Assembly (NCBI GenBank): GCA_002238605.1 | Contig: MPMR01000010.1 | Span: 62,001-126,000 of the forward strand | DNA length: 64,000 nucleotides | Direction of reading: 5' to 3' | DNA from: BD2-11 clade cluster bacterium bin43 | Lineage (GTDB): Bacteria > Gemmatimonadota > Gemmatimonadetes > Longimicrobiales > Gaopeijiaceae | Shown: positions 42,000 to 62,049 of the stretch, piece after piece | Position numbering within the stretch: position 1 is the first letter of the stretch | How the letters are laid out: every line of letters begins with the position of its first letter | Position numbers and translations under genes: made by a program | Notes under the pieces: model-generated | What the model saw: the letters and a program-made list of their open reading frames with translations, nothing else | Told to the model about the DNA's origin: nothing | Databases searched by the model: none

Positions 42000-42469
<470 letters not shown>

Positions 42470-42473
<4 letters not shown>

Positions 42474-44845
42474 GTGACAACGGAAGCAACGGAACCGGCT
42501 TCATCGGCGCGAGCCTCAAGCGCAAGGAAGACGCCCGCTTCCTGACCGGACGCGGACGCTACACCGACGACATCAACCTGCCCGGGCAGCTGTACGCCCA
42601 CCTGCTGCGCTCGACGGTCGCGCACGCCAGCCTGGGAAGTGTGGACACCAGCGCGGCGAAGGCGGCGCCGGGCGTGCACGCCGTGTTCACGGGAGCGGAC
42701 ATGGAGCATGTGGGCGGCGTGCCGACCGGGTGGCTGATTCACTCGAAGGACGGCTCGCCCATGGTGGAGCCGAAGCACCCGGCCATGGCCGTCGGCAAGG
42801 TGCGCCACGTGGGTGAAATCGTGGCCATCGTGGTGGCGGAGACGCGCGACCAGGCGCGCGAGGCCGCGGCCCTGATCGACGTCGACTACCAGGACCTGCC
42901 CGCGGTCGCCTCGCTCGAGGCCGCCCGCGCGGACGGCGCGCCGAAAGTGTGGGACGAAGCCGACGGCAACCTGTGCTACGACTGGGAGGTGGGTGACCGG
43001 GCGGCCGCGGAAGCGGCCATCGACGGCGCCGCCCACGTGGTTTCCATCGACGTGGTGAACCAGCGGCTGGTGCCCAACGCCATCGAGCCGCGGGCCGCCA
43101 TCGGCAACTTCGACCCGACCACCGACGAGTACACCCTCTACACCACCAGCCAGAACCCCCATCTGATCCGGCTGCTGCTGGGCGCCTTCGTACTCGGCCT
43201 GCCCGAGCACAAGCTGCGCATCGTGGCGCCCGATGTCGGGGGCGGCTTCGGATCGAAGATCCCCCACTACGCGGAAGAGGCGATCCTCACCTGGACCGCG
43301 GGCCAGCTGTGCCGGCCCGTGAAGTGGACCTCGGACCGTTCCGAGGCCTTCGTCTCCGACACCCAGGGCCGCGACCATCTTAGCACCGCCACGCTGGGGC
43401 TGGACCAGGACGGCAGGTTCGTCGGTCTCAAGGTCTCCACCAAGGCCAACCTGGGGGCCTACCTGTCCACCTTCGCGACCTGCGTGCCGACCTACCTGTA
43501 CGGCATCCTGTTCGCGGGGCCGTACACGACCCCGGCCATCTACGTGGAGGTCGAGGGGGTGTTCACCAACACCGTCCCTGTAGACGCGCTGCGGGGGGCG
43601 GGGCGGCCGGAGGCCACCTACCTGCTCGAGCGCCTGGTCGACAAGGCCGCCGCCGCGACCGGCATCGACCGGGTCGACATCCGGCGCCGCAACTTCATCC
43701 GCGAGTTCCCCTACCAGACCCCGGTCGCCCTCCAGTACGACCAGGGCGACTACGACGCCACCCTCGACCTCGCGCTGAGCGCCGCCGACTGGGACGGCTT
43801 CGAGGCGCGCCGGTCGGAGGCGGGCAGCCGCGGGAAACTGCGCGGCATCGGCATCTCGACCTTCATCGAGGCGTGCGGCATTGCGCCCTCGGCGGTGGTG
43901 GGGTCGCTGGGCGCGCGCGCCGGGCTGTACGAGGTGGGCAGCGTGCGCGTGCATCCCACTGGCTCGGTGTCGGTCTTCACCGGCACGCACAGCCACGGCC
44001 AGGGGCACGAGACCACCTTCGCCCAGATCGTCGCCGAGACGCTGGGCGTCGACTTCGAGGCCGTCGACGTGGTGCACGGCGACACCAACGCAATCCCCTT
44101 CGGCATGGGCACCTACGGGTCGCGCTCACTGGCCGTGGGCGGCACCGCCATCTACAACGCCGTGCAGAAGGTCATCGCCAAGGGCAGGAAGATCGCCGCC
44201 CATCTCCTGGAGGCCTCCGAGGAGGACATCGAGTTTGCCGACGGCAACTTCACGGTGGCCGGCACCGACCGCTCGAAGAGCATCGGCGAGGTCGCGCTGA
44301 CCGCGTATGTGCCCCACAACTATCCCGAGGGCCTCGAGCCCGGCCTCGAGGAGACCGCGTTCTACGATCCCCTCAACTTCACCTTCCCCGCCGGCACCCA
44401 CATCGCCGAGGTGGAGGTGGACCCCGAGACCGGCGTAGTCGAGCTGGTGAGCGTGACCGGCGCCGACGACGTCGGGCGCATCATCAACCCCATGATCGTC
44501 AACGGGCAGCTGCACGGCGGCCTGGCCCACGGCATCGGACAGGCGCTGCTCGAGCACTGCGAGTACGACGCGGAGGGCCAGCTGGTGACGGGTTCGTACA
44601 TGAACTACACCATGCCGCGCGCGGGCGACCTGCCCAACTTCAACATCAACCACAACACGACCCATTGCACGCATAACCCGTTGGGGGTGAAGGGAGTCGG
44701 CGAGGTCGGCTCGATCGGCGTTCCGCCCGCGGTGATCAACGCGGTGGTCGACGCGCTGAGCCCGCTGGGCGTGACCCACATCGAGATGCCCGCCACATCG
44801 GAGCGGGTTTGGCAAGCGATTCAGGCCGCACAGGCCCAGGACTGA
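42470..44845 (+). CDS. Molybdenum hydroxylase large subunit, form II CO-dehydrogenase-like (CoxL-like)
   Basis: 791 residues from ATG 42470. It binds the molybdopterin cofactor: [28 protein letters not shown], and the C-terminal [22 protein letters not shown]. The active-site loop reads [17 protein letters not shown]. True CO dehydrogenases (form I) have AYRCSFR with the Cu-ligating Cys; form II proteins have AYRGAGR, and this one has LRGAGR, so it should not be called a CO dehydrogenase. The substrate is probably an aldehyde, N-heterocycle or similar. It forms a complex with the adjacent S and M subunits, located in the cytoplasm. Confidence 0.95.
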
Positions 44846-44858
44846 CCGGAGAGCGAAC

Positions 44859-45653
44859 GTGGACGATTTTCAATATCACGCACCGTCTTCGGTTGACGGT
44901 GTCCTGAGCGCCCTCAGGGGCGCGGACGACGGCAAGGTGCTGGCGGGGGGCATGAGCCTGCTGCCCGTCATGAAGCTGGCCATGGCCGCCCCGAGCGATC
45001 TGGTGTCGCTGCGCAACGTGCCGGGACTGAGCGACATCGAGGATCACGGGCACTGCCTCAAGATCGGCGCGTGTTGCACGCACGCGCAGGTTGCGGCGTC
45101 GAGCGTGGTGCGGGAGCGCATCCCGGCGCTGGCGGCGATGGCCGGCCGCATCGGCGACCCCCAGGTGCGCAACCGCGGCACCATCGGCGGCTCGGTGGCC
45201 CACAACGATCCCGCGGCGGACTATCCGGCGGCGTGCGTCGGGCTGGGCGCGACCATCATCACCGACCGGCGCAAGATCTCCTCGGACGACTTCTTCGGGG
45301 CGATGTTCGAGACGCCGCTGGAGGAGGATGAACTGGTCACCGCCGTGTGCTTTCCGATCCCGGACCGGGCCGCCTACGCGAAGTTCGAGAACCCGGCGTC
45401 GAAGTACGCGGTCGCGGGGGTGATGGTGGCCGAGGATTCCGATGGCGTGCGGGTCGCGGTGACCGGCGCGGGCGCGGGCGTCTTCCGTGTGGCGGAGATG
45501 GAGGCCGCGCTGGCGGACGACTTCTCGGCCGATGCGGTCGCGGGCATCGGCGTATCTTCGGACGGGCTGCTGTCCGACAACGTGGCGGGCGCCGAGTACC
45601 GGGCCCATCTGGTCACGGTGATGGCGAAGCGGGCCGTGGAGGCCTGCGGCTAG
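44859..45653 (+). CDS. coxM: Molybdenum hydroxylase FAD-binding medium subunit (CoxM-like)
   Basis: 264 residues from GTG 44859 (GGAG upstream), 13 bp after coxL. FAD-binding motifs AGGMSLLPVMKL (residues 30-41) and TIGGSVAHNDPAADYPA (about 108-124) are intact. It is slightly shorter than the typical 280-290. It takes electrons from the iron-sulphur subunit and passes them to a quinone or other acceptor. Confidence 0.94.
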   Translation: MDDFQYHAPSSVDGVLSALRGADDGKVLAGGMSLLPVMKLAMAAPSDLVSLRNVPGLSDIEDHGHCLKIGACCTHAQVAASSVVRERIPALAAMAGRIGDPQVRNRGTIGGSVAHNDPAADYPAACVGLGATIITDRRKISSDDFFGAMFETPLEEDELVTAVCFPIPDRAAYAKFENPASKYAVAGVMVAEDSDGVRVAVTGAGAGVFRVAEMEAALADDFSADAVAGIGVSSDGLLSDNVAGAEYRAHLVTVMAKRAVEACG

Positions 45654-45674: not shown

Positions 45675-46745
45675 ATGGACGAAACAGAGAGGGCGCGGGG
45701 CCGCGCTGAGCAGAGCGGTCCTGCGCCCTCGCCGCGTTCGGTCGACGACGGGGGCGGTCCTGCACCCCTTCCCCGGTCCGTGGACGACGCCGTGGCGCTG
45801 CTCGGCGGCCAGGGGTATGTCGCGGACGCGAGCCTCGGGACCGCTCTCTTTCTGGCGCTCGAGCTGGGCCGTCCCCTGTTCCTGGAGGGAGAGGCGGGGG
45901 TAGGCAAGACCGAGCTGGCCCGGTCGGTGGCGGGCGCGCTGGGCAAGCCCCTGGTGCGGCTCCAGTGCTACGAGGGGCTGGACATGGCCGCGGCCGCCTA
46001 CGAGTGGAACTTCGCGAAGCAGATGATCCACATCCGGGCCGCGGAGCTGGGACGGGATCTGGAGCCGGGACGCGGCGTCCAACCGGGGGCCGGCGCGGCG
46101 GGCAGCGACGGCACCAGAGGCGAAGGCTCGACACACCTCTCCGAGCGCGGTTCACTTCCGGCGGTCGAAGGCGACGTTTTCGGCGAGGAGTTCCTGATCC
46201 GGCGTCCGCTGCTGCAGGCGCTGGACCCGGCGGACGGGGTGGCGCCCGTGCTCCTCATCGACGAGCTGGACCGCAGCGACGAGCCCTTCGAGGCGTATCT
46301 CCTGGAGGTGCTCTCGGACTTCCAGATCACCATCCCCGAGCTGGGCACCATCCGGGCGGAGACTCCGCCGGTGGTGGTCATCACCTCGAACCGCACCCGT
46401 GAGATCCACGACGCCCTCAAGCGCCGCTGCATCTACCACTGGATCGACTATCCGACGGCGGAGCGGGAGATGGCGATCCTCGCGTCGCGGGTGCCGGAAG
46501 CGCCGGAGGGGCTGAGCACCCAGGTCGTGGGTTTCGTGCGCAAGGTGCGCGAGATGGAGCTGTTCAAGCGGCCCGGCGTGGCCGAGACCCTGGATTGGGC
46601 GCGCGCCCTGATGGCCCTGGACCGCCGGGTACTCGACCGCGAGACGGTGAACCGCACGCTGGGCGTGCTGCTCAAGTACCAGGACGACCTCGAGCAGCTG
46701 CGGCGGGACGGGGGCCTGGAGGAGGCGATGGCGGGGGCGGAGTAA
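45675..46745 (+). CDS. coxD: MoxR-family AAA+ ATPase, CoxD-like
   Basis: 356 residues, ATG 45675. An acidic/Pro-rich N-terminus (about 1-40) precedes the AAA+ core: Walker A GEAGVGKTE, the CoxD-type LVRLQCYEGLDMAAAAYEWNFAKQM, a Gly-rich loop insert (about 125-165), Walker B LLIDELDR, and sensor 1 VVVITSNRTREI. CoxD works with the VWA protein CoxE to mature the metal centre of CO-dehydrogenase-type enzymes. Here the coxE-like gene is displaced 3.6 kb downstream by four inserted genes. Confidence 0.92.
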   Translation: MDETERARGRAEQSGPAPSPRSVDDGGGPAPLPRSVDDAVALLGGQGYVADASLGTALFLALELGRPLFLEGEAGVGKTELARSVAGALGKPLVRLQCYEGLDMAAAAYEWNFAKQMIHIRAAELGRDLEPGRGVQPGAGAAGSDGTRGEGSTHLSERGSLPAVEGDVFGEEFLIRRPLLQALDPADGVAPVLLIDELDRSDEPFEAYLLEVLSDFQITIPELGTIRAETPPVVVITSNRTREIHDALKRRCIYHWIDYPTAEREMAILASRVPEAPEGLSTQVVGFVRKVREMELFKRPGVAETLDWARALMALDRRVLDRETVNRTLGVLLKYQDDLEQLRRDGGLEEAMAGAE

Positions 46746-46841: not shown

Positions 46842-47738
46842 GTGCACTTGCCACGACCTTCGTCCGCCTTGCCGGGGCGGATGCTGTTGCTCATTGCTTC
46901 CCTGATCGTCGTTACGACTGCACTCCCCGCCGCGGCCCGTGCCCAGACGCCACCGGACATCCCCGCTCCGAGCGACGCCCTCTACGAGGTGCGGCTCGGT
47001 GACGGCTCCGTGATCTACGCGCGCGTCGTGGAGTTCGACGAGGCGCGGGTGGTGTTCGAGACCGTGGGCGGTGCCCGCCTCGATGTCGAACGGACCGGGA
47101 TCGAGGGCATCCGTCCGGCTCGTGGACAGGTCGTCGACGGCGAATTCCGCACCGAGGATCCCGGCGCTACCCGGCTGTTCTTCACCTCGACCGGGCGCTC
47201 GCTCGAACGCGGGGAGTCGTACGTCGGCACATACGTGGTCGTCCTGCCGTTCGCCGCGGTCGGAGTGACCGACCGTTTCACGATCGTTGGCGGGGCCCCC
47301 GTTCTCTTCGGCGAGCTCGAGCCGTTCTACCTCGGTCCGAAGGTGCAGATTCTCCGTCACCTCGAGGTACAGGCCTCCATCGGAACCCTCGCCTTCTTCT
47401 TCGACGACGAGGTGGTCGGGGTCGCCTACGGGGTGGCCACGTTCGGAGACACGGACGATGCCCTGTCCGCGGGAATCGGCTACTTCTATTCGGGAGACGA
47501 GGTCCTGAACGAGCCGGCGTTCATGGTGGGGGGCGAAACCCGGGTCAGCCGCAGGATCAAGCTCCTCACCGAGAACTACATCCTTCCCGACGCCGTGGGC
47601 GTCGTCCTGTCCGGGGGAGTTCGGATCATCGGAGACCGCTTCAACACCGAGGTCGGAGCCATGGGCGCCATCGCGGACGGCGGCGACGGCGGTTGCTGCG
47701 TCCCGCTCATCAATTTCTCGTACTCGTTCGGGAGATAG
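46842..47738 (+). CDS. Secreted protein of unknown function, possibly outer membrane
   Basis: 298 residues from GTG 46842 (AAGGAG upstream). The signal peptide (MLLLIASLIVVTTALPAAARA, residues 14-34) is followed by a small beta-rich domain (YEVRLGDGSVIYARVVEFD ... RTGIEGIRPARGQVVDG, about 48-100) resembling SH3-like modules. The remainder is an alternating-strand region ending FSYSFGR, compatible with a small beta-barrel. I recognise no family. It is located between coxD and the FG-GAP lipoprotein, on the same strand. Confidence 0.75.
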   Translation: MHLPRPSSALPGRMLLLIASLIVVTTALPAAARAQTPPDIPAPSDALYEVRLGDGSVIYARVVEFDEARVVFETVGGARLDVERTGIEGIRPARGQVVDGEFRTEDPGATRLFFTSTGRSLERGESYVGTYVVVLPFAAVGVTDRFTIVGGAPVLFGELEPFYLGPKVQILRHLEVQASIGTLAFFFDDEVVGVAYGVATFGDTDDALSAGIGYFYSGDEVLNEPAFMVGGETRVSRRIKLLTENYILPDAVGVVLSGGVRIIGDRFNTEVGAMGAIADGGDGGCCVPLINFSYSFGR

Positions 47739-47770
47739 GCTGGCCCGTGGGCAACAGCAAAAGGCGAGTC

Positions 47771-49402
<1,632 letters not shown>

Positions 49403-49472: not shown

Positions 49473-49505
49473 GATATGGCTGCTATCATATGGCTGACCC
49501 ATATC
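49473..49505. promoter_or_regulatory. Likely VapBC operator
   Basis: Inverted repeat GATATGG (49473-49479) / CCATATC (49499-49505) with an additional CATATGG at 49487-49493, inside a duplicated GCTGACCCATA. It lies 22 bp before vapB and matches the autoregulatory palindromes usual for such modules. Confidence 0.65.
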
Positions 49506-49526
49506 TTCTTCAGGGGAACCGATCTC

Positions 49527-49760
49527 ATGAAAACGACCCTCAACCTGAACGACCACATCCTGCGGCGGGCCAAGCGTCGTGCCAGGAGAGATGGCACAAC
49601 GCTGACGCGCTTCGTGGAGGATGCGCTGCGGACCAGGCTGATGGAGGATTGCCGCAAACCGGCCTTCAAACTGGTGCTTGAGACCGTTCGTGGACACGCG
49701 CCGCCGAACGTCGACGTCTCCGACCGCGAGGCTCTCTATGACGTGATCGACCACGCATGA
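49527..49760 (+). CDS. vapB: VapB-type antitoxin
   Basis: 77 residues from ATG 49527 (AGGGG upstream). The N-terminal ribbon-helix-helix MKTTLNLNDHILRRAKRRAR is followed by GTTLTRFVEDALRTRL and a C-terminal toxin-binding tail. It overlaps vapC by 4 bases. It neutralises the PIN toxin and, with it, represses the promoter at the upstream palindrome. Confidence 0.9.
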   Translation: MKTTLNLNDHILRRAKRRARRDGTTLTRFVEDALRTRLMEDCRKPAFKLVLETVRGHAPPNVDVSDREALYDVIDHA

Positions 49761-50182
49761 TCGCCATCGATACCAACATCCTGATCTACGCGCACCGCGC
49801 CGAAACCACTCTTCACGAATCCGCGGCCACGAGACTGACCGAACTCGCGGAGGGAACCGGGCCCTGGGGGCTACCGGTCTTCTGCATCGCGGAGTTCTCG
49901 CGTGTGGTGACCCATCGAAGGGTATTCAACCCGCCCTCGACGATCGAAAAGGCGTTCGGCTTCATCGAAAACGTGGTTGCATCCCCCACATGCCGTGTCC
50001 TCCATCCCGGGACGGATTATCTCGCGCTGTTGGGCGAGACCGCTCGCCGCGCCGACGCGCGAGGCAATCTGATGTTCGATGCGCAACTGGCGGCACTGTG
50101 CACGGAACACGGCATCGGACGGCTTCTGACGAACGACCGTAACTTTGAGCGGTTCGATCACCTGGAGGTCATCTATCTTTAG
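49757..50182 (+). CDS. vapC: VapC-type PIN-domain toxin
   Basis: 141 residues, ATG 49757. PIN-domain acidic residues are present: Asp5 in IAIDTNIL, Glu46 in FCIAEFSRV, Asp in NLMFDAQLAAL and Asp in LLTNDRNF. VapC toxins are Mg-dependent RNases that cut tRNA or rRNA. It is inserted, with vapB, between the coxD and coxE genes, which suggests later acquisition. Confidence 0.92.
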   Translation: MIAIDTNILIYAHRAETTLHESAATRLTELAEGTGPWGLPVFCIAEFSRVVTHRRVFNPPSTIEKAFGFIENVVASPTCRVLHPGTDYLALLGETARRADARGNLMFDAQLAALCTEHGIGRLLTNDRNFERFDHLEVIYL

Positions 50183-50331: not shown

Positions 50332-51510
50332 ATGCGCCGACAGCCCACCGACCCCACCGGCAGGCTCGCCGACAACGTCGCCCGTTTCGTGCGCATGCTG
50401 CGCGCGGCCGGCATGCCGGTGGGTCCCGGCCACACCATCTCCGCGGCGCGTGCGCTGGGAGCCGTCGACACCACCGAACGGAGCCAGTTCTACTGGGCGC
50501 TGCACGGGACCCTGGTCTCGGCGCCGGAACAGCGCGCCATCTTCGACAGCGCCTTTCGTCTCTTCTGGCGGGATCCGCTGGGGCGGGACGAGGCCCTGCA
50601 GGCGCTGCTCTCCACGTCGCGCATGGGCGAGGGCGAGGCGGGCGAACGGGCCCCGGCCCGACTGTCGCCGGGAACGGCCCCGGGGTACGCGGAAGCCGTT
50701 CGCGCGCGGGAAGGCGAGGAGATCTCCGTGCGCATGGCCTTCTCCCCGTCGGAGGTGCTGCGCACCAAGGATTTCGAGCAGATGACCGCGGCGGAGGTCC
50801 GGCAGGCCAGAGAGGCGCTACGCCACCTGAAGCTGGACTTGCGCCCGATCCCGACGCGTCGCTTTCGCCCCGATCCCCACGGCACCGGGATCGACGCGCG
50901 CCGCACGTTGCGCGCCAGCCTGCGCACCGGCGGGTACCCCATGTCCCTGAAGCGCCGCGCGCACGCCACGCGCCGCCCGACGCTGGTGGCCATCTGCGAC
51001 ATCTCGGGGTCGATGGAGACCTATTCACGCATCCTGCTGCACTTCTTCCATACGCTGACCAATGCCGGCGAGCGCATCCACACCTTCCTCTTCGGCACCC
51101 GGCTCACAAACGTCACGCGCCTGCTTCGAGACCAGGACGTGGACCGGGCGATGGACCGCGTGGGGCAGACGGTGCTCGACTGGTACGGCGGCACGCGCAT
51201 CGGGGCGGCGCTGCGGGCCTTCAACCTGCACTGGTCCCGGCGCCTGCTGGCGGAGGGCACGGTGGTGCTGCTGGTGACCGATGGGCTCGACCGGGAGGGG
51301 GCCAGCGGGATCGCCTTCGAGGCCCGGCGGCTGAGGAAGTCGTGCCGGCGGCTGATCTGGCTCAATCCGCTGCTGCGCTTCGAGAAGTTCGCGCCCCGGG
51401 CCGCGGGCATCCGGGCGCTCCTGCCCGAAGTGGACGAGCATCGGCCGGTGCATGACCTGGCGAGCGTGGAGGCCCTGGCGAGAGCGTTGGGGCATGCACC
51501 CGTCCCTTGA
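50332..51510 (+). CDS. coxE: VWA-domain protein, CoxE-like
   Basis: 392 residues from ATG 50332; no obvious ribosome site. The N-terminal helical region (LADNVARFVRMLRAAGMPVGPG, ERSQFYWALHGTLVSAPEQR) and the RPTLVAICDISGSMETYSR VWA core with MIDAS DxSxS are typical of CoxE. Further motifs are WYGGTRIGAALRAF and LLVTDGLDREG. CoxE cooperates with the CoxD ATPase in maturing the molybdenum enzyme. Its last 4 bases overlap the start of a TonB-dependent receptor, so coxE opens a tightly coupled series of envelope genes. Confidence 0.92.
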   Translation: MRRQPTDPTGRLADNVARFVRMLRAAGMPVGPGHTISAARALGAVDTTERSQFYWALHGTLVSAPEQRAIFDSAFRLFWRDPLGRDEALQALLSTSRMGEGEAGERAPARLSPGTAPGYAEAVRAREGEEISVRMAFSPSEVLRTKDFEQMTAAEVRQAREALRHLKLDLRPIPTRRFRPDPHGTGIDARRTLRASLRTGGYPMSLKRRAHATRRPTLVAICDISGSMETYSRILLHFFHTLTNAGERIHTFLFGTRLTNVTRLLRDQDVDRAMDRVGQTVLDWYGGTRIGAALRAFNLHWSRRLLAEGTVVLLVTDGLDREGASGIAFEARRLRKSCRRLIWLNPLLRFEKFAPRAAGIRALLPEVDEHRPVHDLASVEALARALGHAPVP

Positions 51511-54419
51511 TCCGTCGACACGCGTTTTTCGCAACTGAGCGGGCCGCGTACGGCCGCCGGATCGCCCGGTTGATCGGAATCTGCGGCGTCGCCGGCATCC
51601 TCGCGCTGCCGGGGCGGGCGGCGGCGCAGAACGCTGGAAGCATCTTCGGGCGCGTCGTCGACGCATCCACCGGCGAAGCGCTCCAGGATGCGCTCTTCAC
51701 CGTCGAGGGCACGGAGCTCCGGACCTCTTCCGCGCCCGATGGCCGCTTCATCCTGGTGGCGGTGCCCTTTGGCGACCGGTCGGTGACCGTCTCCCTGCTC
51801 GGCTACACCACCACGACCCTCGAGGGCGTCCGCGTGCGGCCGGGACAGCCTGCCCGCGTCCTCGTCGAGCTGGAGCCCGAGGCCCTGGAACTCGACGAAG
51901 TCCGGGTCGAGGTCGAGCGCGTCCGCCTGGTGGAGCCGGAGGTGAGCGCAACCCACGAGCTGATCCAGGCGAGGGAGTTGCGCGAGCTGCCGATCGACGA
52001 GGTCTCCCAAGCCACCGAGCTGGCGCCGGGGGTCAGCGATGGCCACTTCCGCGGCGGGCGCATCGGACAGGAAGCCTACGTGGTCGACGGGCTGGAGTTC
52101 AAGAACCAGTTCGAGGCGTCGTTCCAGGGTCCCGCGCTGGAGCACCCCTCCGACGCTCTCGAGGAGATCGAGGTGGTGACCGGGGGACTTGGAGCCCGCT
52201 TCGGATCGGCGCTCTCGGGGGTGGTGCACTACACGACAAGGCGTGGAGATCCGGAGCGTTGGCGGGGGACGGCGGCCGTGCGCACCGACCACTGGGCGCC
52301 GGAGCAGTTCTTCCGGGGATTCACGGCGCTCACGGTTTCCGGAGGCGGACCGGCGCCGGTGCTCGGACGGGGATCGGTTGTGTTCGCGAGCGTGCTCGCG
52401 CAGGGCATGCTGGATGCGGAGCCGCGCGCGCGCGGCCTGACCTGCCTCCGGCCGGGCGACGGCGATGCCGAGATGGACGCGCTCGTCGACCGGGTGACGG
52501 GAGATCCGGCCACCGCTGGGCTGGCCTGTCCCTATACGGCGGCCGCCTTCCCCCACCAGGCCGGCGACAAGCTGCTGGCGTTCGCGCGCATCGACCGGCC
52601 GATTGCCGACGGCCTGGCCCTCACGACCACGCTCCTGCACAACCGGGTGCAATCCGGGCTGTATACCTCCGAGTTCAAGTACAACCGCGACTATCAGCTC
52701 GGGCAACGGGCGGACGGCACGCTCGCCGCCGCATCGCTGGATTGGTCCCGGCAGGGGCTCGGAGGGGGCGCGCATGTTACGGTGCGGGGCTCCGCCATGC
52801 GGCTGGACCGCTACCTGGGAGTGGTCGACCCGGACTCCCGGGCGGGCCGCCGCACCCTCGCGGGGTTCGGACCTGCGGGCCTTTCCTTTCTGGGCGAGGC
52901 GTTCGTGCGCAGCCCGGTGCAGGACCAGTTGAGGTCCGGGACTCCCGTGCCCGGATACGCTCTTCCCGGCGGCTCCGTCGGATCTCCCTTCGGACCGGCC
53001 GCGGAGGGCATCTTCTTCACCGAGGGAACCCCGGGCATCGCCAACTGGGCGCGCACCGAGTTCGTCGGCGCCGACCTGTTCGCCGAGCTGCTGTCATCCG
53101 CGGGTCACGTCCTCGGCGCGGGAGTCGGGACCAAGCTCTATCGCGTCGAATCCTACGAGCGGGCAAGAAGCTTCCTGGCCGGATCCTCGCCCAGCTACGC
53201 CCTCTTCCATCCAGGTTCGGTGAGCGCCTTCGTGGACGCGCGCCTCGCCGCCGAGGACGAGATCACCCTCACCTTCGGAGGCAGGATCGACGCCTTCCGG
53301 GCGGGCCTCGATTACCGGCACCACCGGGTGGATTTCCTTGCACCGGGGGCGCGCGCGGGCTGGAAGATCGGACTCGCCCCGCGCATCGGCGTGTCGGGGC
53401 CGGTTCCGGGGACGGAGGGCCGGCTGGCCTTCCGCTTCAACTACAGTCAGGTTGCGCAGCCTCCCGACTTCCGCTTCTTCCTCGACACCACGCTCGGCGA
53501 TTCGCTGCGAACCGACATTCGCCGCCAGGGCAACCCCGATCTGGCATTCGAGAAGGGGACCAGCCTCGAGTTCGGGATGACTCATCAGATCGGTGAGAGC
53601 GCGGGCGTCTCCGTGGTCGGGTTTCGAAAGGAGCTGAACAATCTCGTGACCGGCAGCCTGCGGTTCGGCGGGTTCGGGAAGGGCCAGTTCACGGGAGGGG
53701 ACTTCGGAACGGTCCGGGGCGCGGAGATGTCGGTGCGGGCTCGGTGGCCGTTGCTGCGCCTCCGTCTGGGCTACTCGCTTCAGAAGGCGGTGGGCGTGGT
53801 TTCGACGGCGCTCGACGCCGAGATCGAGGAGCTCGACGCGCCCCGGGAGGAGTTTCCTCTTGCGTTCGACCGGAGGCATTCCGCGAACCTGGCCGTCTTC
53901 GCGGGTCGTGCGGCCGGGGAGGGCGACCGCCGATGGGGCATCGCTCTCGCCACCGTCGCGAAGAGCGGTTATCCGCTGGACCGCGAGCTCCTGGCTCCGG
54001 AGCGCGAGGGCGAACGCCGCGATCTCGACCGCTTCCTGCCCTGGATCGTGCAGCTTGACCTGCGGGCCACGCTCGAACTCGGCGACCTGCCCGTTTGTTC
54101 AGACTGCCGCTGGCGGATCGTGGTTGACGGCCGCAACCTCCTCGACCGTGACAACGTCCTGGCGCTCCGCCGTGACACCGGCACGATTGCGCCCCCCGCG
54201 TCGACGGTTCTCGAATTGGCGCGGGGCGCCCCGGGCGGCTCCATCCCGCGGGAGTCGCCGCGCTACAGCGCGCTCGCGGATCTGGACGGCAACGGCCGCA
54301 TCACCGATCTGGAGTATCGAACGGTGCGGTTGGCGGCGGCCCTGGACCGCATGGATCCGTCCCTGTTCTACGACGAACCCCTTCAGCTGAGACTGGGTGT
54401 CGAGGTGGCCTTCCGATGA
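51507..54419 (+). CDS. TonB-dependent receptor with regulatory-like domain and EF-hand insert
   Basis: 970 residues from TTG 51507 (stop of coxE overlaps). The signal peptide ends GRAAAQ (residue 41). A carboxypeptidase-regulatory-like domain (SIFGRVVDASTGEALQDALF, about 45-125) precedes the plug (ELPIDEVSQATELAPGVS, then EIEVVTGGLGARFGSALSGVV) and the barrel, which ends LRLGVEVAFR. Near the C-terminus a perfect EF-hand loop, DLDGNGRITDLE, is inserted before the last strand. Two Cys (VCSDCRW) lie close by. It imports an unknown ligand and is coupled to coxE and to propeller lipoproteins downstream. Confidence 0.9.
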   Translation: MIRRHAFFATERAAYGRRIARLIGICGVAGILALPGRAAAQNAGSIFGRVVDASTGEALQDALFTVEGTELRTSSAPDGRFILVAVPFGDRSVTVSLLGYTTTTLEGVRVRPGQPARVLVELEPEALELDEVRVEVERVRLVEPEVSATHELIQARELRELPIDEVSQATELAPGVSDGHFRGGRIGQEAYVVDGLEFKNQFEASFQGPALEHPSDALEEIEVVTGGLGARFGSALSGVVHYTTRRGDPERWRGTAAVRTDHWAPEQFFRGFTALTVSGGGPAPVLGRGSVVFASVLAQGMLDAEPRARGLTCLRPGDGDAEMDALVDRVTGDPATAGLACPYTAAAFPHQAGDKLLAFARIDRPIADGLALTTTLLHNRVQSGLYTSEFKYNRDYQLGQRADGTLAAASLDWSRQGLGGGAHVTVRGSAMRLDRYLGVVDPDSRAGRRTLAGFGPAGLSFLGEAFVRSPVQDQLRSGTPVPGYALPGGSVGSPFGPAAEGIFFTEGTPGIANWARTEFVGADLFAELLSSAGHVLGAGVGTKLYRVESYERARSFLAGSSPSYALFHPGSVSAFVDARLAAEDEITLTFGGRIDAFRAGLDYRHHRVDFLAPGARAGWKIGLAPRIGVSGPVPGTEGRLAFRFNYSQVAQPPDFRFFLDTTLGDSLRTDIRRQGNPDLAFEKGTSLEFGMTHQIGESAGVSVVGFRKELNNLVTGSLRFGGFGKGQFTGGDFGTVRGAEMSVRARWPLLRLRLGYSLQKAVGVVSTALDAEIEELDAPREEFPLAFDRRHSANLAVFAGRAAGEGDRRWGIALATVAKSGYPLDRELLAPEREGERRDLDRFLPWIVQLDLRATLELGDLPVCSDCRWRIVVDGRNLLDRDNVLALRRDTGTIAPPASTVLELARGAPGGSIPRESPRYSALADLDGNGRITDLEYRTVRLAAALDRMDPSLFYDEPLQLRLGVEVAFR

Positions 54420-55594
54420 TGCGGATGCGTCGGGGCGCGTGGATGGCGCTGGGGGCCCTGTGCGCTCTTGGCTGCAGGGAAGCCACGGCTCCATTCGACT
54501 CGGCGGATCGTCCGACGCTCGAAGTGGAGGGGCCGCGCCAGCTCACCTTCTCCGCCCTCGACGAGCGAACGCCGGTCTGGCTCGGGCCCGACTCGCTGGC
54601 GTATGCGGCGGAGGGTCTCGCGCCTTTTGCGGAAGGTCGGGGCGTCCTGATGAAGATCGCGGCGACGGGCGGGGCCGCGGAGGCACTGCTCCCGGCGTTC
54701 CAGTTTCCCGGTGGCCCGTCACGCTGGCTGACCAGCCCGGCGCCGTCCCCCGCCGGAGACCGGGCAGCCTACGTGGAGATATGGGCCGTGGCCGACGGTC
54801 AGCTTTGTCCGGCGATCGCCGTGGTTTGCGATCCCTCCGGCGCTCAGCCGATCGCCTCACGCCTGGGCGAGATCCGGCTTCACCTCATGGATCGGGAAGG
54901 AGGAGGCTCGCCGGAACCCGAACGCTCGCTGGTGGTGCCGCTCGAGGGACGCGAGTTCGTACCTGTGCGCGGCGATCCGTTTCTGCCGGGCTTCTTCCGC
55001 ATCCGCTACTACCCTTTCCAGCGCCTGTTCCACGAGGAGAATCCACCCCTCTTCCGGCCCGATTGGCATCCGGGCGGGACTCGTGTCGCATTCAGCGACG
55101 GGCTCCGGGTACTCCTCTGGGACCCCGCCTCCCCCCAGGCGGAAGCGGTGCCCGGCACCGACGGCGGCGTTTCTCCCGCGTGGTCGCCAAACGGCGAGTG
55201 GATCGCGTTCACAAGGCTGGTTCGGGGTGACCCGATTGCCGCGAGCTGCACCCACTCGGGGTTTCTGGGCCCGGTCTGCCGGCAGGAGCGGGTGGACTAC
55301 GAGGTCCGGGATCGCAGGATCGCACTGGTGCGGCCGGATGGTTCGGAGATTCGCGAACTGGGGTCAGGAGAGGAGCCCGCCTGGACGCCCGACTCGGGCC
55401 GGCTGGTCTTCCGGCGGGACGGGCGTCTGTGGACGGTTTCCGCAGGAGGGGGGGCGGCGACTCCGGTTCCCGGCACCGAGGGCGCCCGCGAGCCAGCGAT
55501 TTCCCCCGATGGGGGCCGGTTGGCGTACGTCCGGTTGTTGAGCGGCGGGAAGCACGACCTCTGGGTCGTCCCGTTTGAGGGAGGAGGATCGTGA
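54416..55594 (+). CDS. TolB-like (PD40) beta-propeller lipoprotein
   Basis: 392 residues from ATG 54416, overlapping the receptor stop. Lipobox ALGC (Cys20). WD40-like PD40 blades are visible: RQLTFSALDERTPVWLGPDSLAY, PDWHPGGTRVAFSDG, SPAWSPNGEWIAFTRL, PAWTPDSGRLVFRR and PAISPDGGRLAYVR. Two further cysteine pairs (QLCPAIAVVCDP, SCTHSGFLGPVC) are probably disulfides. Such propellers bind partner proteins or ligands at the membrane; a role with the receptor is inferred from tight coupling. Confidence 0.88.
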   Translation: MMRMRRGAWMALGALCALGCREATAPFDSADRPTLEVEGPRQLTFSALDERTPVWLGPDSLAYAAEGLAPFAEGRGVLMKIAATGGAAEALLPAFQFPGGPSRWLTSPAPSPAGDRAAYVEIWAVADGQLCPAIAVVCDPSGAQPIASRLGEIRLHLMDREGGGSPEPERSLVVPLEGREFVPVRGDPFLPGFFRIRYYPFQRLFHEENPPLFRPDWHPGGTRVAFSDGLRVLLWDPASPQAEAVPGTDGGVSPAWSPNGEWIAFTRLVRGDPIAASCTHSGFLGPVCRQERVDYEVRDRRIALVRPDGSEIRELGSGEEPAWTPDSGRLVFRRDGRLWTVSAGGGAATPVPGTEGAREPAISPDGGRLAYVRLLSGGKHDLWVVPFEGGGS

Positions 55595-56778
55595 TCGTCG
55601 GATGGGCCGCTGGCAGCGGGAGGCTTGTTGGGCCCGGAGGAGGAGCCGCGACGGGCGGCGGGCTTGTTGGGCCCGGAGGAGGAGGCGCGACGGTTGGCGG
55701 GCTCGCACTGGTGCTGGCGGCCGCGCTTGCAGGGTGCGGTGATCCGGTCGTGATTCTCGGGGACGCGCCCGGCGTCATGCGGGTCGTGGCCGGGACGCCC
55801 GACGACCTCGAGCCCGCGGAGCGCGTGCCCGCCACCGACCTCGATCTGTCCTCGCCGCGCGGCCTGGCGTTGGGCGCCGACGGGACGCTCTACATCGCCG
55901 ACCGCCTCGCGGCCCGCATCCTGGCAGTGCACCCCGACGGCGATGTGGTCACCCTGGTGGATCACCGCACATGCGGGGGTCCGGCCGCCTGCATGCGACG
56001 TCCCGAAGGGCTCGCGCTCGGCCCCGACGGCACCCTGCTGGTGGCGGACGGCCAGGCGGGCAGGATCTTCAGGGTGACGCCGGGTGCGGTTGGCGATGGA
56101 GCGGTCTCCGTTGTGGCCGGCGACCCCGGAGGCGTGCCTCCGGCAAGCGGCCTGCCGGCCACCGAGGCTCGCTTCGCGGAGCCCGCCGGCGTGGCGGTGT
56201 CCGGGACGGGTGACGTGTTCGTGAGCGACTGGCCCGAGCGGCGCGTGTGGCGCATCGCCCGGGGCGGTACCCTCTCCCCGGCCGTGGGAAACGGACGCGC
56301 GGGCAGCTCCGGTGACGGCGGGCTCGCCACCGGGGCCCGCCTGCGAGCACCTCGCGGGCTGGCGGTCGCGGGAGGACGTCTCTACGTCGCCGACGCGGCC
56401 GACCAGCGCGTCCGGGCAGTCGACCTGGAAACGGGCATCATCGCGCCGGTTGCCGGCTCCGGGACACCGGGCTTCACCGGCGACGGCGGACCGGCCGTCC
56501 GTGCGAGGCTCGCCTTCCCGGAGACCGTCGTGGCCGTCGACGGCGGAGCGACGCTCTTCATCGCCGACCGCGGGAATCGCCGGGTTCGCGCCGTCGATAC
56601 CGCCACCGGAGTCATCCGCACGTTCGCCGGCAACGGCGCGTCGGACTACAATGGCTCCGGGCTGGAGGCCGGCGAGACCGCGCTGGCTGCTCCGGCGGGC
56701 CTTGCCTCCGACCTTGGCTTCCTCTTCATTGCCGACGACCAGCTCAACCTGGTGTGGCGGACCCCGATCCGATTCTGA
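55591..56778 (+). CDS. NHL-repeat beta-propeller lipoprotein
   Basis: 395 residues from GTG 55591, with GAGGAGG directly upstream and a 4-base overlap. The region before the lipobox LAGC carries a 13-residue duplication (RLVGPGGGAATGG / GLVGPGGGGATVGG), an unusually long Gly-rich n-region. The body has NHL-type blades: PRGLALGADGTLYIADR, PEGLALGPDGTLLVADG, PAGVAVSGTGDVFVSDW, PRGLAVAGGRLYVADA and a fifth with LFIADRGNRRVRAVD. It is a periplasmic or surface binding protein. The start could be internal, which would shorten the n-region. Confidence 0.85.
   Translation: MIVGWAAGSGRLVGPGGGAATGGGLVGPGGGGATVGGLALVLAAALAGCGDPVVILGDAPGVMRVVAGTPDDLEPAERVPATDLDLSSPRGLALGADGTLYIADRLAARILAVHPDGDVVTLVDHRTCGGPAACMRRPEGLALGPDGTLLVADGQAGRIFRVTPGAVGDGAVSVVAGDPGGVPPASGLPATEARFAEPAGVAVSGTGDVFVSDWPERRVWRIARGGTLSPAVGNGRAGSSGDGGLATGARLRAPRGLAVAGGRLYVADAADQRVRAVDLETGIIAPVAGSGTPGFTGDGGPAVRARLAFPETVVAVDGGATLFIADRGNRRVRAVDTATGVIRTFAGNGASDYNGSGLEAGETALAAPAGLASDLGFLFIADDQLNLVWRTPIRF
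55622..55699 (+). repeat. 39-bp in-frame duplication in the NHL lipoprotein leader
   Basis: GGCTTGTTGGGCCCGGAGGA occurs at 55622 and 55661, period 39 bp (13 codons), within the signal region of the NHL gene. Confidence 0.85.
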
Positions 56779-56836
56779 GCCCCGCTGCGGCTCGCCAGGA
56801 AGAATCATCTCCAACCAGGGACCGGGCGATCGAAAC

Positions 56837-58072
56837 GTGACCCTTCCACTTTCGCACCCGCGGTCATCCGCCCGGGCGTGCATCGCCGTCGCTACGCTCT
56901 TCATGGGACTCGCCACGGGATGCGCCCCTGCAGAGGTCGGCCCCGCGCCCATCGTCCGGGACAGCGTCGGCGTCGAGTTCGTGCGCCACGGCCGGCTGGT
57001 CGACTACGGCCGACCTGTCTATCCGGCCGAGTACATCATCGCCATCGGGGACATGGAGGGTCCTCCCGAGATGCTCTTCGCCGAGGTGGCCGGGGTCGAG
57101 CTGCTGGATGACGGTACGATTGCCGTCCTCGACCGGGAAGCGGCCGAGGTGCGGCAGTTTGCGCCGGACGGCTCCTTCATCCGCCGCATCAGCCGCAGGG
57201 GCTCCGGACCGGGCGAGATCAGCGGCGACCTTACAGTGGCGATGGTCGGCATCGGCGCAGGACGCCTGCTCCTGCCCGACGCCATCAACCAGACCGTGAG
57301 CATCTTCGGCCGGGACGGCAGCCTCCTCGAATCGCACCGGTGGGACATCCTGCAGACGTACATGCCGGAATGGCGGGCCGCCAGCGACACGACGCTCGCC
57401 GTGCACCTCTGGTCCGCAGCAGCCCCGTGGCACGTGCTCGCGCACAGGGCCGTCACCGGCGCGCTGCTCGACACCCTGGCCGTGTTCGTGGTGCGGTCGC
57501 CGGTCAGTCCCGTGGACAGGCGCTTTCCGGTCTGGGGGGACATGATCGTCTGGTCCACGCGCGAGCCGGACGAGGTCGTCGCCGGCTGGATGTCCGAGCC
57601 GTGGGTCACCCTCTTCCGGCGCGGCGATCCCGTGCGCAGGATCTCATGGGACCGCGACGAGGAACTGCTGGATGAGGAACAGCAGGAGATCCTCCTCGGC
57701 ATCGTCGCCCGGGGCATGGACCCGAGCGAAACCCCTCCGGACCTGCGCACCCGGGTGCGCCTGCCCGAGCGGCTGCCGGCGGTAGCCGACATAGAGGTCG
57801 GCGCGGAGCTCATCCTCGTCCAGCGCGTCCGGTCCGTCGAGACGCTGGATCAGCGCATCACCTACGTCAACCGGGGACCATCTGGCTTCGGCGGCCCGCT
57901 GTGGGACGTCTTCACCTTCGAAGGCGACTACCGGGGCGTGCTCGACCTGGGTGCCCCGGCCGATGTATTCGACATTCGCGGCGATACCATCCTGGGCGTG
58001 CGCGAGGACAGCCTCGGGGTTCAGCAGCCCTTCCTGGCCCGGCTGCCGGCGGAGCTGCGGGAACCGCGCTGA
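56837..58072 (+). CDS. 6-bladed beta-propeller lipoprotein
   Basis: 411 residues from GTG 56837, chosen because it gives a basic N-terminus before a lipobox (ACIAVATLFMGLATGC); the frame is open far upstream. Signature segments of the 6-bladed propeller family common in this kind of genome: VELLDDGTIAVLDREAAEVRQFAPDGSFIRRISRRGSGPGE (positions about 85-125) and VFTFEGDYRGVLDLGAPADVFDIRGDTILGVREDSLGVQ near the C-terminus. It starts 58 bp after the NHL gene and is likely the last member of the coxE-receptor-propeller series. Confidence 0.85.
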   Translation: MTLPLSHPRSSARACIAVATLFMGLATGCAPAEVGPAPIVRDSVGVEFVRHGRLVDYGRPVYPAEYIIAIGDMEGPPEMLFAEVAGVELLDDGTIAVLDREAAEVRQFAPDGSFIRRISRRGSGPGEISGDLTVAMVGIGAGRLLLPDAINQTVSIFGRDGSLLESHRWDILQTYMPEWRAASDTTLAVHLWSAAAPWHVLAHRAVTGALLDTLAVFVVRSPVSPVDRRFPVWGDMIVWSTREPDEVVAGWMSEPWVTLFRRGDPVRRISWDRDEELLDEEQQEILLGIVARGMDPSETPPDLRTRVRLPERLPAVADIEVGAELILVQRVRSVETLDQRITYVNRGPSGFGGPLWDVFTFEGDYRGVLDLGAPADVFDIRGDTILGVREDSLGVQQPFLARLPAELREPR

Positions 58073-58913: not shown

Positions 58914-59633
58914 CTATCGCGCCAGCGGCGACGCCCCCGGATTGCGAATGCCGTCGATGATCTGCGCCAGAATGGAGAAGGCGATTTCGGCGGGGGTGCG
59001 GGCGCCGATGGGGAGCCCCACCGGGCTGTGGATGCGCGCTACCGCTTCCGGGCCGAAGCCGGCCTCGACGAGGCGCTCCCGGCGCTGCCGGCGGGTGCGG
59101 CGTCCGCCCAGCGCGCCGATGTAGAAGGCGTCGCTGCCGAGCGCGGCGGTAAGCGCCGGGTCATCGATCCTGGGATCGTGGGCGAGCACCACCACCGCGC
59201 ATCGGTCGTCCAGTTCGATCCGCTCCAGCGCCTCGTCCGGCCACGCCCGAACCAGCTCGGCGGCAGGGAAGCGCTCGCGGGTCGCAAAGCCCGCGCGCGG
59301 GTCGATGATGGTGGCGGGAAGGCCGACCTCCGGGGAGGTGCGCGCCAGTACCTGGGCGATGTGCACCGCCCCCACCACCAGCAGTCTGCGGGGCACCGTG
59401 TACGGGCGGAGAAGGACGGGACCATCGGCGGTCTCGGCCACCCGGGCCTCCTCGGCGCGCAGGGCGGCGTAGACCTGGTCGGCCGAGACGCCCTCCATGG
59501 ACCGCGGTTCGCGTGCCCCGGCGGGCCCGATTCTCAGCAGCTCCTGGGCGCCGTCGCTCAGCCGGGTCGCCAGGACGACGCTGCGCCCCGACCGCTGCGC
59601 TTCAAGAAGGGTGCCGAGGAGGGCGGATTTCAC
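58914..59633 (-). CDS. XdhC/CoxF-like molybdenum-enzyme maturation protein, Rossmann half
   Basis: 239 residues from GTG 59633. The C-terminal XdhC Rossmann domain is evident: RRLLVVGAVHIAQVLART, then TIIDPRAGFATRERFP, CAVVVLAHDPRIDDPALTAAL, YIGALGGRRTRRQRRERL and the terminal IHSPVGLPIGARTPAEIAFSILAQII. XdhC proteins bind and insert sulphurated molybdopterin into hydroxylases. The N-terminal XdhC_CoxI domain is encoded by the gene immediately upstream, so the protein is split. It presumably serves the coxSLM enzyme. Confidence 0.92.
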   Translation of the reverse strand: MKSALLGTLLEAQRSGRSVVLATRLSDGAQELLRIGPAGAREPRSMEGVSADQVYAALRAEEARVAETADGPVLLRPYTVPRRLLVVGAVHIAQVLARTSPEVGLPATIIDPRAGFATRERFPAAELVRAWPDEALERIELDDRCAVVVLAHDPRIDDPALTAALGSDAFYIGALGGRRTRRQRRERLVEAGFGPEAVARIHSPVGLPIGARTPAEIAFSILAQIIDGIRNPGASPLAR

Positions 59634-59636
59634 GGA

Positions 59637-59978
59637 TCAGCGGACCGCTTCGACGTAGATCTCCACCTCGCCGCCGCACGCGAGCCCGACTTCCCACGCC
59701 ATCTCGTTGGTGACGCCGAACTTGAGCCGCTGCGGATCGCCGGATTCGATGACCTCCATCGCGGCGTGGATGACGGCCGATTCCACGCATCCGCCGGAGA
59801 CCGATCCGGTGAAATCCCCGCCGTCGGCCACCGCCATGTGGCTTCCGGCGCGGCGCGGCGCCGAGCCCCAGGTGCGCGTGACCGTCGCCAGCGCCACCCG
59901 GCGCCCATCGCGCAGCCAGCCGGCGGCCTGCTCCAGGACCGGATCCGCGCTCGTGTGTCCGCCGTCAGATGGTGCCAT
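59637..59978 (-). CDS. XdhC/CoxI N-terminal-domain protein
   Basis: 113 residues from ATG 59978; the frame is open to 60164 but the extra part is Arg-rich and unlike the family. The XdhC_CoxI domain reads EQAAGWLRDGRRVALATVTRTWGSAPRRAGSHMAV, then FTGSVSGGCVESAVIHAAMEV and LACGGEVEIYVE, with the conserved SGGCVE cysteine. It is 3 bp upstream of the Rossmann half. It serves molybdenum cofactor delivery to the form II hydroxylase encoded 14 kb away. Confidence 0.9.
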   Translation of the reverse strand: MAPSDGGHTSADPVLEQAAGWLRDGRRVALATVTRTWGSAPRRAGSHMAVADGGDFTGSVSGGCVESAVIHAAMEVIESGDPQRLKFGVTNEMAWEVGLACGGEVEIYVEAVR

Positions 59979-60029
59979 GGCCCCAAGTTGCCCCGACTGC
60001 CCGCGCGCGCGCAACGTTTTGGATGGCTG

Positions 60030-60038
60030 TGCTATCAT
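60030..60038 (+). promoter_or_regulatory. Candidate extended -10 element for the moxR-bat operon
   Basis: TG-C-TATCAT, an extended -10-like motif in a small AT-rich island about 125 bp before the moxR start; no clear -35. Low certainty. Confidence 0.3.
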
Positions 60039-60164
60039 ATTTTCCGGGAAGCGACGCGCAGGTCCGCTGTCACCCGCCGCGCCGTAGATTCGTCGCGGCG
60101 GCGCCTGCTTGAATCGTCGCGGCGCGCGTCCTCGATTCGACATCCACATGATCCGAAAAGGCAC

Positions 60165-61166
60165 ATGACCACCTCAACCAGACACGACATCGCCGCCATC
60201 CAGGACAAGATCCGCGAGGAGAGCGCCTTCGTGGAGCGCCTGCTGGATGAAGTCGGGCGCGTGATCGTGGGCCAGCGCTACATGGTGGAGCGGCTGCTGA
60301 TCGGCCTGCTCTCCGACGGGCACGTGCTCCTGGAAGGCGTGCCCGGGCTCGCGAAGACCCTGACCGTGCGCACCCTGGCGGCGGCCATCCGCACCTCCTT
60401 CCAGCGCATCCAGTTCACGCCCGACCTGCTGCCCGCGGACCTCATCGGGACCCTGGTCTTCGACCCCAGGGAGTCCGACTTCAAGACCCGCAGGGGCCCC
60501 ATCTTCGCCAACATCATCCTCGCCGACGAGATCAACCGCTCTCCGGCCAAGGTCCAGGCGGCGCTGCTGGAGGCGATGCAGGAGCACACCGTCACCATCG
60601 GACAGACCACCTTCCCGCTCGACGATCCCTTCCTCGTGCTCGCCACCCAGAATCCCATCGAGCAGGAGGGCACCTATCCCCTGCCGGAGGCCCAGGTGGA
60701 CCGCTTCATGCTGAAGCTCGCGGTGGGCTATCCCGACAAGGATGAGGAGCTTGAGATCATGCGGCGCATGGCGACGGGGCCTGCGCGCGAGGTGACTCCG
60801 GTGGTGCGTCCCGACGAGATCCTGCGGGCGCGCGACGCCGTCGAGATGGTGTACATGGACCCCCAGATCGAGCGCTACATCGTCGACCTGGTGTTCGCGA
60901 CCCGCGATCCGGCCGCCTGCGGGCTGGACGACCTGGTGCAGCTCATCGCGTACGGCGGTTCACCGCGGGCGAGCATCTGCCTGGCGAAGACGGCGAGGGC
61001 GCACGCTTTCCTGCGCCGGCGCGGCTACGTGACCCCGGAGGACGTGCGCTCGGTGGGGATGGATGTGCTCCGCCACCGGGTGCTGGTCACCTACGAGGCG
61101 GAGGCGGAGGAGGTCACCCCGGAGGATGTGGTGACGCGCATTCTGGACAACATCGAGGTGCCGTGA
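60165..61166 (+). CDS. MoxR-family AAA+ ATPase
   Basis: 333 residues from ATG 60165 (AAAAGG upstream). Motifs: EVGRVIVGQRYMVERLLIGLL, Walker A GVPGLAKT, QFTPDLLPADLIGT, Walker B IILADEINRSPAKVQAALLEAMQE, sensor LATQNPIEQEGTYPLPEAQ and the C-terminal lid with YGGSPRA. This is the classic MoxR subfamily (about 330 residues), a chaperone-like ATPase acting with DUF58 and VWA proteins. It heads the operon moxR - DUF58 - batD-like - batA. The frame is open far upstream, but family similarity begins here. Confidence 0.95.
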   Translation: MTTSTRHDIAAIQDKIREESAFVERLLDEVGRVIVGQRYMVERLLIGLLSDGHVLLEGVPGLAKTLTVRTLAAAIRTSFQRIQFTPDLLPADLIGTLVFDPRESDFKTRRGPIFANIILADEINRSPAKVQAALLEAMQEHTVTIGQTTFPLDDPFLVLATQNPIEQEGTYPLPEAQVDRFMLKLAVGYPDKDEELEIMRRMATGPAREVTPVVRPDEILRARDAVEMVYMDPQIERYIVDLVFATRDPAACGLDDLVQLIAYGGSPRASICLAKTARAHAFLRRRGYVTPEDVRSVGMDVLRHRVLVTYEAEAEEVTPEDVVTRILDNIEVP

Positions 61167-61170
61167 CCGA

Positions 61171-62049
61171 ATGATCGCCAGCGAAATCCTTCGCAAGGTC
61201 CGCCGTATCGAGATCACCACCCGGGGTCTCGTGAACGAGGTCTTCTCCGGCGAATACCACTCCGTCTTCCAGGGACGGGGCATGAATTTCGCGGAGGTGC
61301 GCGAGTATCAGTACGGGGACGATATTCGCAGCATCGACTGGAACGTGACGGCGCGCACCGGCACCCCGTTCGTGAAGGTGTTCGAGGAGGAGCGCGAGCT
61401 CACCGTCATGCTGGTGGTGGACGTGAGCGCCTCGGGCAACTTCGGGACGCGGGTGCGCATGAAGGGCGACGTGGCGGTGGAGATCTGCGCCCTGCTGGCC
61501 TTCAGCGCGATCAAGAACAACGACAAGGTCGGGCTGATCCTCTTCAGCGACCGGATCGAGAAGTTCGTGCCTCCGCGCAAGGGGCGCCGGCATGTGCTGC
61601 GGGTGCTCCGGGAACTGCTGTATCATCGGCCCGACCGGAGCGGTACCGACATCCGGATGGCCCTCGAGTACCTGACGCGCGTGACCCGGCGGCGGGCGGT
61701 GGTGTTTCTGGTGTCGGATTTCCTGGCGGGCGGGTTCGGGCGCGCGCTCAACATCGCCGGGCGGCGCCACGACACCATCGCGGTGCGGGTGCGGGACCGG
61801 CGGGAGGCGGAGCTGCCTCCCATCGGGCTGGTGGAGTTCGAGGACGCCGAGACGGGAGAGCGGTTCGTGGTGAACACCTCGGACCGGAGCTTCCAGGAGG
61901 CCTTCGGGCGCAACCGGGCCGCGGTCGAGGAGGAACTCGAGCGGACGCTCCGCCACGGCAAGGTGGACCTGATCGACGTGCGCGCGGACCGGCCGTACGT
62001 GCGGCCCCTGATGCGCTTCTTCAAGGAGCGGGAGCGGCGGCGGCGATGA
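61171..62049 (+). CDS. DUF58 (VWA-like) protein
   Basis: 292 residues, ATG 61171, 4 bp after moxR. The DUF58 signature is GEYHSVFQGRGMNFAEVREYQYGDDIRSIDWNVTAR (residues about 28-63), then FEEERELTVMLVVDVSASG with a DxSxS-like MIDAS, LILFSDRIEKFVPP and VVFLVSDFLAGG. It is cytoplasmic or membrane-associated and partners MoxR. Its stop overlaps the next start (ATGA). Confidence 0.95.
   Translation: MIASEILRKVRRIEITTRGLVNEVFSGEYHSVFQGRGMNFAEVREYQYGDDIRSIDWNVTARTGTPFVKVFEEERELTVMLVVDVSASGNFGTRVRMKGDVAVEICALLAFSAIKNNDKVGLILFSDRIEKFVPPRKGRRHVLRVLRELLYHRPDRSGTDIRMALEYLTRVTRRRAVVFLVSDFLAGGFGRALNIAGRRHDTIAVRVRDRREAELPPIGLVEFEDAETGERFVVNTSDRSFQEAFGRNRAAVEEELERTLRHGKVDLIDVRADRPYVRPLMRFFKERERRRR

Follow-up and report, generated by a model that had tools for sequence, protein, structure and literature searches.

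The five genes at positions 50332-58072 of the window, that is, of the whole stretch of 64,000 nucleotides that was analysed, probably mark the meeting point of two independent units, a cox-type hydroxylase unit and a TonB-dependent import module in which propeller lipoproteins would serve as lids. A probability of roughly 60% is given to this reading, which is based on the separation of the two halves outside the genus of the window and on a co-presence within it that is as expected by chance. A sequence-only reading of the same DNA had joined CoxE, the receptor, and the propellers into one system importing the substrate of the neighbouring hydroxylase. The distribution of the genes speaks against such a joint system, and import of that substrate is unsupported, the receptor module occurring in no fewer than five further families, with neither CoxE nor CoxD beside it.

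All five ORFs are confirmed on the forward strand, each with a coding-type GC3, and so are the overlaps described in the sequence-only reading. The gene coxE (50332..51510) overlaps by 4 bp (TTGA) with the gene of a TonB-dependent receptor with a carboxypeptidase-like domain at its N-terminus (51507..54419; assigned by Pfam, a 22-strand model, and orthologues), which in turn overlaps by 4 bp (ATGA) with the gene of a 6-bladed, TolB-like PD40 propeller lipoprotein (54416..55594; Pfam PD40 and a structure match to TolB). The latter overlaps by 4 bp (GTGA) with the gene of an NHL propeller lipoprotein (55591..56778; Pfam NHL), the start codon of which is uncertain because of the repetitive N-terminus of the protein. 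The fifth gene, encoding a 6-bladed, DUF5128-like propeller lipoprotein (56837..58072; Pfam DUF5128 24.2 bits, lipobox), starts with GTG 58 bp past the NHL stop. In this run, coxE is the end gene of the cox unit, and the receptor gene would most likely be the opening gene of a distinct uptake module. As noted earlier, the genes after coxE have the look of an uptake unit of the outer membrane that includes propeller lipoproteins, in line with their Pfam domains; a SusD-like domain is absent from the eight proteins scanned by Pfam (50.3-63.3 kb). Farther downstream (59028-63347), a MoxR ATPase that carries a long extension at its N-terminus, a DUF58 VWA protein, and a BatD-like protein are encoded; a second MoxR/DUF58 pair is present on the same contig (L093 15098-17031).

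The hydroxylase genes are located on the same strand upstream of this run. They comprise a coxS-like [2Fe-2S] small subunit (42000..42473; cysteine motifs CxxxxCGAC and CxxCxxGM, and homology, with 72-83% to small subunits in related cox clusters), a coxL-like molybdenum-binding large subunit (42467..44845; Pfam MoCoBD_1, MoCoBD_2, and Ald_Xan_dh_C), a coxM-like FAD subunit (44859..45653; Pfam FAD_binding_5), and a coxD-like AAA ATPase (45675..46745; Pfam AAA_5, with the NCBIfam MadB family below cut-off). The active-site loop of the large subunit carries the motif RGAGR, and the protein reaches 650.9 bits versus a cut-off of 991 for the CO dehydrogenase equivalog. Form I CO dehydrogenase is excluded by the RGAGR motif in place of a CSFR-type loop and by the score under the cut-off; judged from its sequence, the enzyme is a xanthine-oxidase-family hydroxylase other than form I CO dehydrogenase. 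The assignment of CoxE as a VWA factor of the molybdenum-hydroxylase maturation family, as proposed earlier, is upheld by 215 bits to Pfam VWA_CoxE, an intact DxSGS MIDAS motif, and the location of its gene in a cluster with coxD and the hydroxylase genes, arranged as coxSLMDE in relatives. The hydroxylase had been placed just upstream of coxE. This holds insofar as coxS-L-M-D do lie upstream, but two envelope genes and a PIN gene with its small partner come before coxE, so that the order in the window is coxS-L-M-D, secreted protein, FG-GAP/UnbV lipoprotein, small gene and PIN gene, coxE, receptor, PD40, NHL, and 6-bladed gene. The two envelope genes (46842-49402) code for a protein that is secreted and probably located in the outer membrane, and for a propeller lipoprotein of the FG-GAP/UnbV type. 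They are a trait of the genus of the window; in the genomes G016 and G158, coxD adjoins coxE. The PIN-domain gene and the small overlapping gene upstream of it (49476-50182) resemble a toxin-antitoxin pair; in congeners, the interval at this site, between the FG-GAP gene and coxE, measures 20 to about 1150 bp. A second cox-type cluster with the order D, E, M, L is found in the same genome (L086 8029-14653). It bears more resemblance to the cox clusters found in other families within the order, and the match of its coxE falls into two pieces, possibly due to a frameshift.

The two halves of the run differ in their distribution over the phylum. Among 395 Gemmatimonadota genomes from 138 genera, receptor orthologues (E <= 1e-100) are found in 26 genomes of 17 genera, spread over five or more families apart from the one to which the window belongs, and CoxE orthologues (E <= 1e-90) in 31 genomes of four genera, all of one family. 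Both proteins occur together in a single genus, that of the window. With 17 and four of the 138 genera as carriers, random draws would yield one or more shared genera with P = 0.41; co-presence in one genus thus matches the chance expectation. None of the 23 CoxE-carrying genomes outside this genus, which come from three further genera in its family, possesses a receptor orthologue, and relatives in which the genes are not adjacent, an observation that the sequence-only reading had named as speaking against itself, are therefore largely what is found. The neighbours of coxE are also different ones there. In genus g25, which with 21 genomes is the second-largest CoxE set, the distance between coxE and coxSLMD is 2 to 8 kb wherever the stretch read includes both, and the genes after coxE code for an aminotransferase and ABC-transporter proteins, as identified from translations; G158 and G016 possess a compact coxSLMDE cluster, beyond which G158 also has an amidohydrolase-like gene.

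Conversely, the receptor keeps its propellers. At the 24 receptor loci outside the genus, PD40 stands beside the receptor in 17 and NHL likewise in 17, as measured with trimmed NHL query ORFs, so that the co-occurrence of the receptor with both lipoprotein families, for which a check had been suggested, is confirmed. At several of the loci that lack a partner, a contig end interrupts the locus or the receptor gene is broken. Some loci contain two PD40 genes in tandem; with more distant receptors (35-41% identity), NHL, or PD40 together with NHL, is kept but transcribed divergently. Neither coxE nor coxD is found beside the receptor at any of these 24 loci, nor is there a match to the DUF5128-like 6-bladed gene. 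In family f2, translations of the neighbouring genes indicate NYN-domain and 3-methyladenine-glycosylase-like proteins upstream of the receptor and electron-transfer-flavoprotein-like proteins downstream. In G195, a molybdenum hydroxylase is encoded at a distance of about 3.5 kb from the receptor. Weighed as a possible independent link, it is taken as chance, since the large subunit shows 29% identity, the genes are on the opposite strand without coxE or coxD, and the case is one among the 24 loci. On the complete chromosome of G195 (CP070722), a second receptor copy is seemingly split into an N-terminal and a C-terminal part (L165 9072-10784 and L116 8001-9041, respectively) about 70 kb apart, either by rearrangement or by misassembly. 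A scan of named genomes returned full-length relatives solely from Gemmatimonadota, from unnamed records, and from four records labelled Gammaproteobacteria with this very locus. These four public draft genomes (L094, L096, L099, and L100, named Gammaproteobacteria bacterium) contain the Gemmatimonadota locus at about 89% identity and are probably misnamed. On the question of how the genus of the window came by the module, through transfer or because it was lost elsewhere, the genus forms one clade on an unresolved backbone.

Within the genus, coxE, the receptor gene, PD40, NHL, and the 6-bladed gene follow one order in the eight congeners with an intact module. This constancy and the short gaps between the genes would fit a single lineage-specific system, in which receptor and propellers import the substrate of the adjacent hydroxylase and are co-expressed via coxE, as would the failure to see a terminator-like site between coxE and the receptor gene in a promoter and terminator scan that is uninformative at this G+C content. 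The same synteny, however, extends to other neighbours where these are on the same contigs, namely an opposite-strand gene upstream and two small genes, MoxR, DUF58, and BatD downstream; as the entire region is syntenic, unrelated genes included, gene order says little on function. The coxE/receptor overlap is not conserved either. It is private to the genome of the window and depends on a TTG start, while the eight congeners have no receptor start at this site, the candidates lying beyond the coxE stop, mostly as GTG 3 to 42 bases downstream. The receptor/PD40 stop-start overlap, on the other hand, recurs in the genus and at several loci of another family (e.g., G055, G049, and G047). In the congener G004, what comes after coxE is a fusion of the receptor gene start with the final portion of NHL, with the 6-bladed gene next in line. 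The junction (L071 11380-11720) lies in a short G+C-rich stretch that is alike in the receptor and NHL genes; coxSLMDE is kept, and no second receptor orthologue was found in this genome. G004 represents a natural loss of receptor, PD40, and NHL with the cox genes retained, although the case comes from a single draft genome (89% completeness, 6% contamination), in which misassembly is possible. With this loss, with no association of receptor and CoxE at the genus level, and with neither half neighbouring the other outside the genus, a single system is considered improbable. Judged by the spacing, read-through from coxE into the receptor module is possible in the genus, and the genes, being adjacent throughout it, may have a genus-specific functional tie or be co-expressed; nothing was found that indicates a shared function of coxE and the receptor module.

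The receptor is a TonB-dependent receptor with barrel and plug. In Pfam, the TonB barrel scores 60.2 bits, which is over the cut-off, and the Plug domain 21.9 versus a cut-off of 23.9; a CarboxypepD_reg domain is present in addition. Structures were predicted for the receptor and for the PD40 protein. In the receptor model, 22 barrel strands were counted at a pLDDT of 71.7, and 184 PDB matches were obtained at E<=0.001, with TonB transporters dominating among the matches listed. Chains of BtuB solved with BtuG lids are among the best matches (target-normalised TM 0.72-0.76), PqqU follows with 0.70, and SusC and RagA are weaker with 0.46-0.49. At a pLDDT of 71.7 and with targets of unequal size, these values are a hint that small-ligand transporters fit the receptor better than SusC and RagA do. 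An EF-hand loop, DLDGNGRITDLE, is encoded at 54279..54314 on the forward strand and corresponds to receptor residues 925-936, as seen from the alignment and its position in the model. Its first Asp (Asp925) and last Glu (Glu936) are invariant in 19 aligned receptors. It is placed between strands 21 and 22 of the modelled barrel and is, if the usual topology holds, predicted to be in the last extracellular loop (loop 11). The module could also be a surface sensor or attachment apparatus instead of an importer, an option brought up by the NHL profile, which matches teneurin-like adhesion proteins as well, and by FG-GAP propeller genes nearby in the genus of the window. It is deemed very improbable, with the barrel of the receptor being normal, the teneurin match reflecting shared NHL repeats, and sigma factor, anti-sigma factor, and histidine kinase unrecognised beside the receptor in a non-exhaustive reading of loci.

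A strict lipobox is present in the NHL and DUF5128-like proteins and in most PD40 orthologues with an intact N-terminus; the PD40 protein of the window (CALGC) departs from the strict pattern solely through Cys at position -4. Directly past the lipid cysteine, the N-terminus is strongly conserved, with CR[ED] ... PF in PD40 and CG[DE]P ... LGD in NHL proteins, as would be expected if the lipoproteins contact a partner. The propellers might be enzymes or periplasmic or structural partners, processing ligands at the surface or having a TolB-like periplasmic role, instead of lids. In support of this, TolB heads the match list of the PD40 model (Z 23.8, rmsd 2.5, 226 residues), with S9-peptidase propellers and oligogalacturonate lyase ranking lower; BtuG and XusB are not among the matches listed, by which a relationship is not excluded. 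Neither the PD40 nor the NHL protein, though, has a catalytic domain beside the propeller according to Pfam and NCBIfam, and a propeller lipoprotein is genetically coupled to the receptor in the manner of a lid, with PD40 and/or NHL adjacent in most loci across families. Such a role is accordingly held to be unlikely, if clearly less so than a sensor or a single system.

Summarizing, the reading as two abutting units would involve the following scenario. In the cox unit, coxS-L-M-D-E would provide a xanthine-oxidase-family hydroxylase with a maturation ATPase and a VWA protein, CoxE, which would act inside the cell in maturation of the metal site of the hydroxylase. The receptor, the PD40 lipoprotein, and the NHL lipoprotein form a conserved Gemmatimonadota module, and the propeller lipoproteins would most likely be located at the outer membrane, over the receptor. 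There, they would capture a small ligand and deliver it to the TonB-driven channel, as do BtuG with BtuB and XusB with XusA, and the EF-hand, placed in the predicted loop 11, may hold calcium close to the ligand or the lid. Lipoprotein-assisted import of a small molecule is proposed on the basis of the barrel model, the N-terminal conservation, the EF-hand, and the likeness to lids. Sequence and structure give no clear indication of the substrate; the imported molecule is probably unrelated to the hydroxylase. Counterpoints are the order fixed in eight congeners, the two envelope genes between coxD and coxE in the genus, the middling pLDDT of the receptor, and the known lid XusB being 7-bladed versus the 6-bladed, TolB-like PD40 protein.

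Tight gene overlaps conserved within one genus are weak evidence of a joint system. What deserves to be retained is the receptor-PD40-NHL module, conserved and carrying an EF-hand in what is predicted to be the last extracellular loop; with it, an unlikely link between CoxE and uptake is replaced by a testable one in a poorly cultured phylum. It is a modest but real find, i.e., a familiar type of machine in a new setting. A search of the accessible literature for the receptor with NHL and PD40 in Gemmatimonadota returned no paper.

Concerning known systems, the aerobic CO dehydrogenase cox cluster of Oligotropha, in which D and E are maturation factors (PMC4240915), likewise unites homologues of S, L, M, D, and E. 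It differs from the cluster described here, in which the RGAGR motif is present, scores remain under the CO dehydrogenase cut-offs, the order is S-L-M-D, two envelope genes, E, and coxF and coxG were not recognised among the genes scanned. With SusC-SusD glycan uptake, the receptor module shares the carboxypeptidase-like N-terminal domain and lipoprotein partners, while the structural match is weaker (TM 0.46-0.49) and no SusD is among the proteins scanned. The lid-type systems of Bacteroides, in which a propeller lipoprotein captures the ligand and passes it to the transporter (PMC10404256, PMC13142918), are closer. XusA-XusB, dedicated to xenosiderophore uptake (PMC13142918), likewise combines a carboxypeptidase-like N-terminal domain, that of XusA, with an adjacent gene for a propeller lipoprotein of the cell surface; unlike the PD40 protein, modelled as 6-bladed and TolB-like, XusB is a 7-bladed DUF4374 protein, and no PepSY reductase was recognised near the receptor module. 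BtuB-BtuG, a TonB-dependent transporter for vitamin B12 with a beta-propeller lipoprotein (PMC10404256), corresponds in this pairing and in the BtuB chains matched by the receptor model. Here, by contrast, there are two or more propeller lipoproteins per receptor, of the families PD40 and NHL, the receptor has a carboxypeptidase-like N-terminal domain and an EF-hand loop, and no riboswitch, that for cobalamin included, was found by Rfam at gathering score in the window and three other receptor loci. The conserved module suggests that propeller-lipoprotein-assisted TonB import may extend beyond Bacteroidota. Receptor, PD40, and NHL might even, at somewhat less than even odds, constitute a distinct Gemmatimonadota importer of small molecules in which each receptor works with two different propeller lipoproteins and loop 11 binds calcium, and which would be convergent with BtuB-BtuG and XusA-XusB.
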